A stretch of 43,042 bases of DNA from Caulobacter sp. AP07. GTDB lineage: Bacteria; Pseudomonadota; Alphaproteobacteria; Caulobacterales; Caulobacteraceae. The translations under genes were made by a program, and so were the position numbers. Of this stretch, positions 11,195 to 16,192 are shown in pieces; the first letter of the stretch is position 1; each line of letters begins with the position of its first letter. The notes under the pieces were generated by a model, which saw nothing but the letters and a program-made list of their open reading frames with translations, did not search any database and was not told where the DNA came from. Location of the stretch: NCBI RefSeq assembly GCF_000281955.1, contig NZ_AKKF01000124.1:1-43042 (forward strand). Direction: 5' to 3'.

Positions 11195-11590
11195 CTATTC
11201 CGGCGACCAGGGCTTGTAGTCGCTGGTGGCGGCCGAGCGCTGGCCGCCGCGGGTCAGCGAGCCCTTGGGACGCCAGGCGTGGATCGTGCCGGTCAGATTG
11301 GGATGGTGGTCCTTTTCCCAGGCGCGGCGCATCAGCGGCGCCGTGGTCGGCGGCTCGTCGAACGTATAGTGCAGCCAGCCGCTCCACTCGGGCGGCACCT
11401 TGGAGGCCTCGGCGTAGCCGTCGTAGATCACCCAGCGGCGCTTGCGCGCGTCGTAGCTGTCGCGGTTGTCGCGCGCCTCGAAATAGCGGTTGCCGTAGTC
11501 GTCCTGGCCCACGAACACGCCGCGACGGCTAATATGGAAACGCTGACCGATGGTCGCACCGTTCCACCACGTGAAGATCGCTTTCAGCAC
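11195..11590 (-). CDS. NDUFA12-like subunit of NADH:ubiquinone oxidoreductase (17.2 kDa family)
   Basis: An accessory subunit of respiratory complex I, homologous to mitochondrial NDUFA12/B17.2, which alphaproteobacteria share with mitochondria. Visible signature: LKAIFTWWNGATIG at the start, DDYGNRYFE, RRWVIYDGYAEASKVPPEWSGWLH, PPTTAPL and a C-terminal KPWSPE. I place the start at the GTG at 11590, which yields the family-typical beginning MLKAIFTWWNG (131 residues). A TTG at 11605 would add five residues. Neither has a strong Shine-Dalgarno site. DUF2155 follows one base after its stop. Confidence 0.92.
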   Translation of the reverse strand: MLKAIFTWWNGATIGQRFHISRRGVFVGQDDYGNRYFEARDNRDSYDARKRRWVIYDGYAEASKVPPEWSGWLHYTFDEPPTTAPLMRRAWEKDHHPNLTGTIHAWRPKGSLTRGGQRSAATSDYKPWSPE

Positions 11591-11717
11591 CGCGTCAGCA
11601 CCCAATCTCGTAAAGGCCCATTTCTGGGAAGGTTCGCGCAGCGCGGGAGGCGTTGCGAAGCGGCCAGACTATAGGTCGGCGGCCCGCCAGCGTCCAGCTT
11701 CGGGCGATGGCTCGAGC

Positions 11718-11824: not shown

Positions 11825-14581
11825 ATGCGCATTCAGTCCCGACATCCCGGTCCCGCTCCCAAGGTGGAACCGCGCGCCCTGGAACGCTGCGATCAAGTGA
11901 TCGAGGTCCTGGCTCCCGAGGACTGGACCGACGCCCGGGTCGAGGCCTGGCTGGATTGGGCTCAGGAGCCGTTCGACGCCGACCTGCCGCTGGGCGGGGC
12001 CCCCGCCCTCTACGCCGGCCGCCTGGCCCGCGCCGGCCTGGCCGAGGGCCTGTTCGGCGACGCCGCCGACGCGGACGCCTTCCGCGACGCCCTGCTGGGC
12101 ACCATGCTGACCGGCGTCGCCTCGCCCGCCGGCCCGCAGACCGCTCCGATGCACCTGCCGGACGTCGGCGAGATCGAGTTCAAGCGCGTCGCCGAGGGGC
12201 ACCTGGCCCGCTGGCGCTCGGCCCAGCTGGCCGCGAAGGCCGCCGCGCGCCTCGACGCCGCCCTGGCCCAGGTCGGCGACGCCGTCGCCCGCTGCCACGG
12301 CGACGCCAAGGCCTGCTCCGACCCGCGCAAGAACAGCGCCCTGGGCCGCGCCGCCCGCCGGGCCCGCGAACTGGGCGCCGACGACCGCATGATCCTCGAC
12401 GCGATCGTCCTGGCCGGCGCGCCGCGCACCGCCCTGATCGACCCGGAGGCGCAAGGCCCCGTCCCGCTGGTCGCCTCGGCCTCGCGCCAGGGCGTCGCGG
12501 CCGTCGACGAGGCGACCAGCTTCGCCGCCCAGGTCGGCTGGGAGACCAGCGCCCTGACCCTGGCGATGTCGCCGGAAGACGCCGAGGCCCTGACCCGGGG
12601 CGCGGCCGTCCGCGCCGCCATCGACGTCACCGCCTTTCAGCACGAGGGGGCCTTCGACTTCGAAGGCTTCAACCAGACCGTCGGCCTGTGGGCCACGGCC
12701 CTGGAGATCGAGCGCGGCGAGCGCCCGGCGCAGATCGGCCTGGCCGGCGTCGGCGACTGGCTGCTGGCCCAAGGCCTGTCGCTGGCCAGCGACGCCGGCC
12801 GCGACGCCGCCGCCGCCCTTTGGGCCCTGGCCGTCGGCGCGGCCCTGTCGGCCAGCGCCGAGGCCGCCGCCGTGCTCGGCGTCGACCCGATCTTCGCCCA
12901 GGAACGCCAGGTCCTGCTGCGCGGCCTGGCCGAGCGCCGGGTGCGCGCCGCCGCCCTGCGCTCGCCCCTGGCCGCCGAGGCCGCCGCCGCCCTGGCCGTG
13001 GCCCATGGCCTGGCCCGCAAGCACGGCCTGCGCTCGGCCCGCCTGGTCGCCGCCTTCGCCGACGCCGAGACCGCTCTGCGCCTCGGCGGGAAGCCCCTGG
13101 GCCACGCCGCCGCCGCGTCGCCGGTCTCGACCGCCCAGACCGCCGACGGCCTGCTGATCCCGACCTTCAGCGCCGCCGCCCACGTCTGCCTGACCCAGGC
13201 CGGGTCCGATTTCGACGCCGCCCGTCGCCACGCCATGGGCCATGGCAGCCTGGCCGAGGCCCCGGCCATCGACCACATGGTCCTGCAGGCCCGCGGCTTC
13301 ACCGCCCACGAGATCGAGCAGGCCGAAGACGCCCTGCGCCATGCCGACGGCCTGCGCGCCGCCTTCGCCCCGGCGGTGATCGGCGCGGGCTTCCTCAGCG
13401 ACGTGCTCGGCGCCCCGGCCGAGGCCCTGGCTGACCCGAACTTCGACACCCTGGCCTTCGCCGGCTTCTCTGAGGTCGAGATCGACGCGGCCGAGCGCCA
13501 TGCCCTGGGCGCGCGCCGGCTGTCGGACTGCGAGGCCCTGGACAACGACATCCGCGCCCTGTTCGCCACCGTCGAAGCGCCGGTGCTGGCCGACCGCCTG
13601 GCGATGATCGAGGCGGTCGAGACCTTCACCTGCCTGGCCACCGCGGCCGTGCTGGACCTGCCGTTCGACGCCCGCCCCGCCGACGCCGCCCGGCTGCAGG
13701 CCGCCGCCGCCCGGGCCGGGGTCCGCGCCCTGCGCCTGAACCGCGTCGCGCCGCCGGCCGGCTTTGTGCTGTCGCTGCCCGAGGCCGAGGTCGAGGCGCC
13801 CAAGCCGGCCCGCGCCCTTGAGCCTGTCGCCGCCGAGGCCAAGCCCGCCCCACCCAAGGAGCGGATCGTCGAGCGCGTGGTCGAGCGGGTCGTGGAGCGC
13901 GGCGGCCGCGCCCGCCGCAAGCTGCCCGACCGCCGCAAGGGCTATATCCAGAAGGCGGCCGTGGGCGGCCACAAGGTCTATCTGCACACCGGCGAATACG
14001 AGGACGGCGAGGTCGGCGAGATCTTCATCGACATGCACAAGGAGGGCGCCGCCTTCCGCAGCCTGATGAACAATTTCGCCATCGCCATCTCGATCGGCCT
14101 GCAATACGGCGTGCCGCTGGACGAGTTCGTCGACGCCTATGTCTTCACGAAATTCGAGCCGGCCGGACCGGTGACGGGCAACGACTCGATCCGTTCGGCC
14201 ACCTCGATCCTCGACTACATCTTCCGCGAGCTGGGGGTGTCGTACCTGGGTCGCGACGACCTGGCCAACGCCGACCCCGGCGAGTTCAACGCCGACGGCC
14301 TGGGCCGGGGCGAAGGCGCCCCGGACAGCGAGGACGAGGCCGAGCCCCTGCCCGCCAGCAAGTTCATCTCCAAGGGCTTCTCGCGCGGCGCGGCGCCCGA
14401 CAACCTGGTGTTCCTGCCGTTCGGCGGTCGCCGGGCCGAGGAGGCGCCCCCGCCCAGCGCGTCCGGCGACGTCTGCCCGGCCTGCGGCGACATGGCGCTG
14501 CGCCGCATGGGCGGCCTGGTGACCTGCGACAGCTGCGGAACCCAGGCGACCGGCCGTAGCGAAGGCGACGGCGCCAGCTAG
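11825..14581 (+). CDS. Shortened, degenerate class II (B12-dependent) ribonucleotide reductase homologue with TSCPD domain
   Basis: The 918-residue protein aligns by eye with the roughly 1200-residue alphaproteobacterial NrdJ. Matching blocks are [17 protein letters not shown] (157-173), [20 protein letters not shown] (277-296), [14 protein letters not shown] (471-484), [22 protein letters not shown] (536-557), and the strongly conserved C-terminal TSCPD part (701-820) with PDRRKGY and [23 protein letters not shown]. It ends in a zinc-type CPAC/CDSC motif (884-904). Missing are the N-terminal radical/substrate region of about 280 residues, the NPCSE-type catalytic Cys segment, and the APTGTIG loop, where 408-418 reads [11 protein letters not shown] instead. 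I infer a non-catalytic paralogue, possibly a partner or regulator of a true reductase elsewhere. The gene is intact and upstream sites resemble NrdR boxes. The ATG at 11825 was chosen over a TTG at 11762. Confidence 0.8.
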
Positions 14582-14651
14582 GCCGTTTCCTTGGCCTTAA
14601 GCTTGCGAGGCCATGCTTGATCGCCGTTCCCGCCGAAAGACGCGTGCCAGA

Positions 14652-15152
14652 ATGAAACCCGCCCAGCTGATCGCCCCGCTCTTCCTCGCCGCGCTGATGG
14701 CCGCGGCCGCTCCGGCCATGGCCCAGAACGCCGGCCAGATCGCCAATGTCCGGGCCGGCGCCAGCTGTCCGCGCTGCAACCTGTTCCAGGCCGACCTGTC
14801 GGGCCTGGCGCTGAAGGGCAAGAACTTGGCCGGGGCCCGCCTGCGCCAGGCCGACCTCAGCCTGGCCGAAATGAACCGCACCAGCTTCGCCGGCGGCGAC
14901 CTGCGCGACGTCAATTTCTACGGTGGCGTGTTCGGCGGCGCCAACTTCGCCGGGGCCAACCTGACCAACGCCAGCTTCGTCGGCGCCTATCTGGAAGGGG
15001 CCGGTTTCCGGGGCGCCACCCTCACCGGGGTCAACCTGTCGGGGGCCGAAATGGACCGCGCCACCGGCCTGACCCAGGCCCAGCTGAACAGCGCTTGCGG
15101 TGACGGCTCCACTCAACTTCCGCGCGGCCTGTCGGTGCGCCCCTGTCGTTAA
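14652..15152 (+). CDS. Secreted pentapeptide-repeat protein 1
   Basis: A 166-residue exported protein. Residues 1-25 form a signal peptide ending in PAMAQ. After a short segment with Cys pair SCPRC come about 14 pentapeptide repeats of the A(D/N)LxG type (for example FQADLSGLALKGKNLAGARL), which build a right-handed quadrilateral beta helix. It closes with LTQAQLNSACGDGSTQLP and GLSVRPC. The next gene has the same architecture with the same Cys pattern. The start at 14652 gives a clean signal peptide; an ATG at 14613 would add a basic tail. Function is unknown; secreted pentapeptide proteins are not the gyrase-protecting type, which are cytosolic. Confidence 0.88.
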   Translation: MKPAQLIAPLFLAALMAAAAPAMAQNAGQIANVRAGASCPRCNLFQADLSGLALKGKNLAGARLRQADLSLAEMNRTSFAGGDLRDVNFYGGVFGGANFAGANLTNASFVGAYLEGAGFRGATLTGVNLSGAEMDRATGLTQAQLNSACGDGSTQLPRGLSVRPCR

Positions 15153-15250
15153 ACTTCCGTCATTACCGCGATTTAAGTGGCGCCCAGCGCCTCGTGGCCC
15201 CAAATCGTAACTCAAGCGGTCGCTTATTCTCGACCGGCCTGGAGGTCTCG

Positions 15251-16192
15251 ATGTCCCGATTGGGGATGACTATCGCAGCCCTGACTCTCGCCCTGTCGGC
15301 CCTTGGCCAACAGGCCTATGCGGGGGTCGAGGACAAGGACGTGCCGCGGATGATTTCGCTCGGCGGAACCTGCGTGAATTGCGAGCTGTCCGGCCGCAAG
15401 CTGACCGGCGCCCGTTTCACCGGCGCCAACTATGCCAAGGCCAACCTGATGGGCGCCGACCTGCGCGGGGCCAGCTTCTTCGGTTCGAACTTCACCGGTG
15501 CCGACCTGTCGCGGGCCGACCTGCGCGGCGCCGAGATGCGCGGCGCCAACTTCGTGGGCGCCATCTTCACCGACGCCAAGCTGTCGGGCATCGAGAGCAG
15601 CGGCGCCAACTTCCAGGGCGCCGACCTGGCTCGGGTGGACCTGTCGTCGTCCGAATTGCACGGCGCCAACTTCATCGGCGCCAACCTCGAAAAGGCCAAC
15701 CTGTCCAGCAGCGAGCTGGTCGGCGCCAATCTGCAGGGCGTCAACGCCCGCTACGCCAGCTTCCAGTCGGCCGAGCTGAACGCCAGCAACATGATCGGCG
15801 GCAATTTCGAGCGAGCCAACTTCCGCAACGCCGAGTTCCCCGGCTCCACCCTGCGCGGCGCGATCTTCGGCGGGGCCGACTTCCACGGCGCCGACCTTTC
15901 CGGCGCCAATCTGGGCGGCGCCGACCTGTCGGGCGCCCGGGGCCTGGACCAGGACCAGCTGGACGAGACCTGCGGCGACGGCGGCACCCGCCTGCCGCCC
16001 GGCCTGACCGTCCGCAACTGCTCGGGCGACCGCTCGCGCATCCGGGTCAGCGCCGACTTCCAGCGCGCCCAGGCCGAGGCCGCCCGGGCCCAGGTCGAGG
16101 CTCACCGCGCCCAGATCGAAGCTGCGGCCCGGATCGCCGCCGTTCCCAAGCCGCCCAAGCCCCCCAAGCCGCCGGCCCCGCCGAGATACTGA
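15251..16192 (+). CDS. Secreted pentapeptide-repeat protein 2
   Basis: A 313-residue exported protein with a signal peptide (residues 1-23, ending QQAYA), a Cys pair in GTCVNCELSG, and about 38 pentapeptide repeats (roughly residues 43-240) such as ANLMGADLRGASFFGSNF. A closing module LDQDQLDETCGDGGTRLPPG with VRNC nearly repeats the end of the preceding gene product, so the two are likely duplicates. Beyond it lies an Arg/Ala/Gln-rich helix (about 265-295) and a KPPKPPKPPAPP tail, absent from protein 1. GGAGG ends 6 bases before the ATG at 15251. An intrinsic terminator follows the gene. The function is not known to me. Confidence 0.9.
   Translation: MSRLGMTIAALTLALSALGQQAYAGVEDKDVPRMISLGGTCVNCELSGRKLTGARFTGANYAKANLMGADLRGASFFGSNFTGADLSRADLRGAEMRGANFVGAIFTDAKLSGIESSGANFQGADLARVDLSSSELHGANFIGANLEKANLSSSELVGANLQGVNARYASFQSAELNASNMIGGNFERANFRNAEFPGSTLRGAIFGGADFHGADLSGANLGGADLSGARGLDQDQLDETCGDGGTRLPPGLTVRNCSGDRSRIRVSADFQRAQAEAARAQVEAHRAQIEAAARIAAVPKPPKPPKPPAPPRY

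Follow-up and report, generated by a model that had tools for sequence, protein, structure and literature searches.

A class II ribonucleotide reductase descendant in Caulobacter with an eroded catalytic core and a conserved C-terminal domain

The C-terminal part of a class II ribonucleotide reductase (RNR) can form a chain of its own, as shown by NrdJb in the sections of PMC5704485 cited here. Many class II reductases also carry an IscU-like domain, for which the cited part of PMC9669993 reports no role. For Caulobacter crescentus, the pathway description taken from PMC6538847 places CCNA_01966 as NrdJ in nucleotide reduction and names dNTP production as one of the purposes that vitamin B12 serves in this organism, and the gene entry taken from PMC5869019 lists CCNA_01966 as a vitamin B12-dependent ribonucleotide reductase. 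Beyond the split NrdJa/NrdJb, neither a dead NrdJ nor a stand-alone TSCPD protein was found in searches of the open-licence PMC literature.

The window, which is the whole 43,042-nucleotide stretch of Caulobacter sp. AP07 DNA that was analysed (contig NZ_AKKF01000124.1), carries a relative of these enzymes, termed pseudo-NrdJ. It is very likely a pseudo-reductase that has been retained on account of its C-terminal domain, an assessment that leaves the identity of any partner aside. What would be new here is the retention of a pseudo-reductase for a domain, instead of a new paralogue. The following features are referred to below.

11825..14581, + strand: pseudo-NrdJ, whole gene, 918 aa (open reading frame, alignments and profile match)
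11825..13759, + strand: eroded reductase core, residues 1 to 645, with a predicted class II RNR fold but lacking the active-site cysteines, NPCSE and APTGTIG
13913..14263, + strand: TSCPD/IscU-like domain, residues 697 to 813, near-invariant and without cysteine
14360..14416, + strand: conserved peptide ISKGF..PDNLV, residues 846 to 864
14465..14548, + strand: zinc ribbon, residues 881 to 908, four zinc cysteines kept and two further tail cysteines lost
11195..11605, − strand: NDUFA12 (complex I subunit) gene, divergent neighbour and marker of the ancestral nrdJ locus

Reading frame, locus and eroded core

The ORF listing and translation gave an uninterrupted frame of 918 codons that opens with ATG 11825 and closes with the stop at 14581. 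The entry from the ORF tool begins at an upstream TTG, but ATG 11825 is likely the true start, because relatives and full NrdJs share an MRI/MKI..R start at this position in the alignments. As judged from sequence, kinship of this ORF to NrdJ is certain. NCBIfam PRK07562 (vitamin B12-dependent RNR) matched with an E value of 4.9e−122 and 408.6 bits, below its curated cut-off of 1737 bits; Pfam TSCPD (PF12637) matched with an E value of 6.2e−9 and 36.5 bits, above its gathering score of 22.8; and PDB 7b9p, the R. sphaeroides RNR, matched with an E value of 2.5e−22. The reductase barrel was a sub-threshold match in the Pfam search. Taken together, the profile and structure-database matches made NrdJ homology clear over the core and much stronger at the C terminus.

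The active-site positions were compared between 16 short forms and 20 full NrdJs. The thiyl-radical cysteine of the finger loop (NxCxE; the Cys of NPCSE) and the Cys of DTACN were each present in 0/16 short forms and 20/20 full NrdJs, and the column of the PHAC Cys, present in 20/20 full NrdJs, was deleted in 16/16 short forms. We take the PHAC and DTACN cysteines to be the active-site redox pair of class II RNR. The finger loop (NPCSE) and substrate loop (APTGTIG) motifs were likewise gone from all 16 short forms and present in all 20 full NrdJs. An internal deletion of ∼120 alignment columns follows residue ∼103 (near 12134); in the alignment with full NrdJs the deleted block spans NSPQWF to SGGTTRRAAK and takes out the first redox cysteine, with further smaller gaps near NANNSVRVTDEF and near NPCSE. 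Over core residues 141 to 645, the window protein shared 34 to 71% identity (median, 39%) with 15 short forms and 24 to 29% (median, 27%) with the full NrdJs. A barrel fold and common ancestry with class II NrdJ were recovered from the predicted fold, the alignment and the shared locus, and the structure model of the whole protein retained the class II RNR fold. By known chemistry, pseudo-NrdJ is predicted to be unable to reduce ribonucleotides.

The original prediction had described an intact, frameshift-free class II RNR homologue of 918 codons that looked catalytically dead, with the NPCSE segment and the APTGTIG loop replaced. These points were all borne out: alignment with full-length NrdJs found the catalytic cysteines not in place, and the position of APTGTIG was confirmed in alignments within the same order and class. 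Its claim that ∼280 N-terminal residues are missing was wrong, as the start is shared with full NrdJs and the gap is internal. The structure prediction it proposed succeeded for the RNR fold and fell short for the TSCPD part, which was modelled alone because the whole-protein model gave low pLDDT there.

Just upstream of the gene, a divergent NDUFA12 was found in 58 of 61 short-form loci. Two of the exceptions (L091 and L094) begin at a contig edge, and the third (L184) has no NDUFA12 neighbour, its genome (G225) carrying NDUFA12 elsewhere on the same contig. The pair was also identified in 27 of 68 full-NrdJ loci, part of the remainder being stretches that are too short, in the six loci with a stand-alone domain (L163 to L165 and L188 to L190) and, by coordinates, in G300. 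Since the divergent pair is common to short-form and full-NrdJ loci, the gene is an eroded nrdJ orthologue in place at the ancestral locus. A divergent pair of NDUFA12 and nrdJ, or an nrdJ remnant, occurs in alphaproteobacteria of several families. Directly 3′ of pseudo-NrdJ, Pfam identified two adjoining pentapeptide-repeat genes (14613 to 16192, + strand), relatives of which are found in most loci of the order.

An NrdJ profile search of the host genome (5.6 Mb, 326 contigs) detected no further NrdJ, only a class I NrdA at C127, which is intact with NLCSE and a C-terminal CxxC; NrdB lies at C212. The original prediction had read the gene as a paralogue and had asked for nrdJ or nrdAB elsewhere in the genome; the paralogue reading was rejected, this being the only NrdJ-type gene found and lying at the ancestral locus.

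Conservation of the C-terminal domain

Over TSCPD residues 697 to 813, the window protein shared 88 to 94% identity (median, 92%) with 15 short forms and 78 to 87% (median, 79%) with 20 full NrdJs. Residues 690 to 880 held no Cys in any of the 16 short forms. The four zinc cysteines were found in 16/16 short forms and 20/20 full NrdJs, and the tail cysteine pair (GTC, GCS), an additional redox pair, in 0/16 and 20/20, respectively. Conservation of the TSCPD part and of the CPAC/CDSC zinc motif, as originally proposed, agrees with the alignments with full NrdJs. Outside its cysteines the zinc ribbon had a median identity of only 46%, and it was absent from the stand-alone proteins of L163 to L165; a [ST]SKG[FY] stretch similar to the ISKGF peptide was present in stand-alone domain proteins. 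Given the poor conservation of the ribbon and its absence from these three proteins, TSCPD together with the ISKGF-type peptide makes up the minimal conserved unit. The TSCPD model has an alpha+beta fold; its matches, which include IscU and lipoate-ligase domains, are all weak. Cysteine ligands of the IscU type were found in the domain of none of the 16 short forms, and an Fe-S scaffold acting through cysteines was rejected for a domain without cysteine.

Among same-genus loci (n = 20), median identity was 93.6% for TSCPD and 52.4% for the core, and the comparison genes gave 95.5% for AccC (19 loci), 84.1% for NDUFA12, 81.1% for AspS (18 loci) and 75.1% for Aat, placing TSCPD nearly at the level of AccC and above the other three. 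The dN/dS values, calculated by the Nei-Gojobori method as simple estimates on GC-rich DNA, were 0.10 to 0.32 for residues 1 to 680 and 0 to 0.055 for TSCPD in the closest pairs. In more distant pairs the core reached about 1.0 and TSCPD 0.19. The zinc ribbon, a stretch of 28 codons, gave values above 1 in four pairs, in which synonymous changes were few. Synonymous change was present in TSCPD (pS, 0.14 to 0.47), and selection therefore acts at the protein level. The core is also under purifying selection in close pairs and, with the RNR fold kept in the model, may matter too; selection is by far the strongest on the C-terminal domain.

Distribution of the domain in bacteria, viruses and plasmids

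The domain was identified in 141 of 149 Caulobacteraceae genomes, covering 20 of 21 genera and 26 of the 27 genomes of the genus; the sole genus genome without a match (G004) was assembled in 590 contigs and has a fragment of the tail. Among the eight genomes of the family without the domain, four (G092, G342, G369 and G381) are 99 to 100% complete in ≤20 contigs, so the domain is not universally essential. The original view of a maintained gene free of frameshifts, for which conservation in close relatives and dN/dS had been proposed as checks, held in this family: no inner stop was found among the Caulobacteraceae matches listed, closest pairs showed purifying selection, and a pseudogene was rejected on the presence of the domain and its low dN/dS. 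Among the frames listed, none exceeded 980 aa, four run-off frames aside; full NrdJs of the order measure 1190 to 1270 aa. Those four frames (1024 to 1341 aa) were rejected as full NrdJs for want of an NPCSE, PTGT or GSG.G.N motif, and their extra length is read as upstream run-off. An apparent domain gap in G350 proved to be a stretch of Ns introduced during assembly. On a Brevundimonas MAG contig (L091:1-2119), an NrdJ core is joined to a Brevundimonas-type tail; this is probably an assembly chimera and was excluded from A3, A4 and the trees, while being included in the 61 short-form loci.

Across 289 genomes of the class, 193 carried the domain, 180 the NrdJ core and 148 NrdB, with cut-offs for core and NrdB chosen by the analyst. 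Domain and core occurred together in 177 genomes, with NrdB in 65 of them. The domain without the core was found in 16 genomes, all with NrdB, one of which (G072) has a 1229-aa frame with an intermediate core score; the strict domain-only set without G072 comprises 15 genomes from eight families, again all with NrdB (15/15). The difference in NrdB between domain-only and domain-plus-core genomes gave a Fisher P value of 8.6e−7, with kinship ignored. Three genomes had the core without the domain, and 93 had neither, of which 65 carried NrdB. No domain was detectable in 65 of the 81 genomes with NrdB and without the NrdJ core; most NrdB-reliant genomes without the core have thus dropped the domain too.

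A stand-alone domain protein (frames of 277 to 301 aa) was encoded by 6 of the 15 domain-only genomes, at L163 to L165 and L188 to L190 in families f12 and f87. At L163 to L165, in genomes of 1.2 to 1.3 Mb, a conserved N-terminal stretch precedes the domain. More diverged eroded forms (L168 to L171 and L180 to L183; families f26 and f88) had frames of 530 to 984 aa and a TSCPD that had drifted to about 43 to 54% identity (43 to 54% for L168 to L171). A TSCPD tree of ∼125 columns required six changes between short and full forms with 71 rows and four with five long rows removed. A single clade of all short forms had an AU P value of 0.064, and other groupings had values of 0.11 to 0.75. Several separate erosions (four to six changes) are favoured by these trees, with which a single origin would also be compatible.

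The scan of viral contigs, restricted to those with an exact peptide pattern in common, identified 38 viral loci, 15 of which encode the domain as its own protein in frames of 208 to 267 aa (IMG/VR loci L198, L200 to L202, L206, L208 to L211, L213, L214, L216 to L218 and L220). These proteins consist of TSCPD and the zinc ribbon, and all six tail cysteines were kept in the 14/14 with a visible end; three pairs had identical tails, leaving 12 distinct tails. The domain gene directly follows a DnaB-like helicase gene in 15/15 loci and is itself followed by SSB in 12/15, the remaining three stopping at the contig edge; DnaB and SSB were named by Pfam in L198 only. The DnaB proteins were 70 to 85% identical, which makes this a single gene order shared within one phage group and not 15 independent cases. 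An NrdJ core was not found in the fetched viral stretches, and the RNR barrel was detected in 0/15 viral records, most of which are fragments (51, 41, 34 and 15 kb, with the other 11 below 7 kb), and in 2/2 full-NrdJ records used as a control. As two tail cysteines are kept, the viral proteins could instead complete a host NrdJ. By annotation alone, nine domain matches in named phage records comprised seven RNRs and two unannotated, and 16 in plasmid records comprised six B12-dependent RNRs and ten without a feature there. The domain model also matches two phage entries of BFVD, with lengths of 184 and 136 aa, that bear the name ribonucleoside-diphosphate reductase.

A proposed role for the domain and comparison with known reductases

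We propose that a class II nrdJ descendant has remained in place in genomes in which class I NrdAB would supply dNTPs. The core has eroded through the observed loss of catalytic and redox cysteines, internal deletions and fast divergence, and NrdAB was presumably present before this began. That the open frame is retained by a second, non-catalytic job of the TSCPD/IscU-like domain and the ISKGF peptide, one independent of ribonucleotide reduction, is strongly supported, as the domain is near-invariant and survives without the core in several lineages. The fact that some bacteria and phages encode the domain alone suggests a separate job. Without cysteine, the domain should use neither cysteine redox chemistry nor, in the manner of IscU, Fe-S clusters with cysteine ligands, and it is most likely a binding or oligomerisation module. 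Tentatively, it could act at the replication fork, close to it or in supplying it with dNTPs, given that its gene lies between helicase and SSB genes on viral contigs for which the barrel search was negative. It is conceivable, though doubtful, that the TSCPD/IscU-like domain more generally acts as an autonomous factor that serves DNA replication or brings dNTPs to the fork. It would then be fused to a working NrdJ, survive under NrdAB in some lineages within a pseudo-reductase or as a stand-alone protein, and occur by itself in phages, where its gene lies between those for the DnaB helicase and SSB.

The inactive barrel or TSCPD could also bind NrdA or NrdB and so tune or assemble the class I reductase. 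The original suggestion of a protein that might regulate, compete with or assemble the true reductase would here have to refer to this class I enzyme, the only other reductase found. The intact host NrdA, the presence of NrdB in 15/15 domain-only genomes and the RNR-like fold kept in the model, which could permit mixed oligomers, would fit such a helper. However, NrdB is expected in domain-only genomes anyway, since some RNR is required; of the 93 genomes that lack both domain and core, 65 have NrdB and manage without such a helper; and stand-alone domain proteins have no barrel. We regard a class I helper as rather unlikely. Assembly of complex I, served by the IscU-like domain together with its neighbour NDUFA12, is improbable. 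In its favour are the NDUFA12 pair, shared by 58/61 short-form loci and by the stand-alone loci from two other families, and the weak IscU-like fold matches, but the same pair in 27/68 full-NrdJ loci indicates an old order that predates erosion, the domain lacks cysteine, viral copies adjoin replication genes, and NDUFA12, present in 249 of 289 genomes, is much more widespread than the domain.

A functionless relic whose frame stays open by chance might account for the fast-diverging core with its deletions and for the eight of 149 family members without a match. It is highly improbable against the absence of inner stops among the matches listed, a TSCPD dN/dS of 0 to 0.055 in the closest pairs and 88 to 94% TSCPD identity over 15 short forms. 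A reductase still working with rearranged catalytic residues would agree with the C. crescentus labels of NrdJ and B12-dependent ribonucleotide reductase in the cited entries of PMC6538847 and PMC5869019, but with three active-site positions devoid of cysteine in 16/16 short forms and both loop motifs absent it is barely credible. The preferred reading remains a pseudo-reductase preserved for the sake of its C-terminal domain.

The annotation, the genus-wide presence of the gene and a C. vibrioides MAG (L078) suggest that CCNA_01966 is the pseudo-NrdJ orthologue, without NPCSE; if so, the labels in PMC6538847 and PMC5869019 are wrong about activity, and a gene labelled as a B12-dependent reductase in the model bacterium C. 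crescentus very probably encodes no enzyme. Survival of the gene isolates a domain function that would be separable from catalysis, and domain-only bacteria and viral contigs provide material for finding this function without interference from reductase activity.

Compared with the long alphaproteobacterial NrdJ of R. sphaeroides (PDB 7b9p/7b9q), pseudo-NrdJ lacks the active-site and redox cysteines and the finger loop, and relative to NrdJ of this type it has a large internal deletion. Its IscU-like part and zinc ribbon resemble those of the cysteine-rich C-terminal domain and NrdJb, which in the relevant sections of Loderer 2017 (PMC5704485) carry a redox cysteine pair and serve a catalytic partner. 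Unlike NrdJb, pseudo-NrdJ has lost the redox pair, and the search of its genome revealed no catalytic partner of class II. With respect to the IscU-like domain of long class II C termini, as described in the cited part of PMC9669993, pseudo-NrdJ differs in that the domain appears to be retained without a working reductase.
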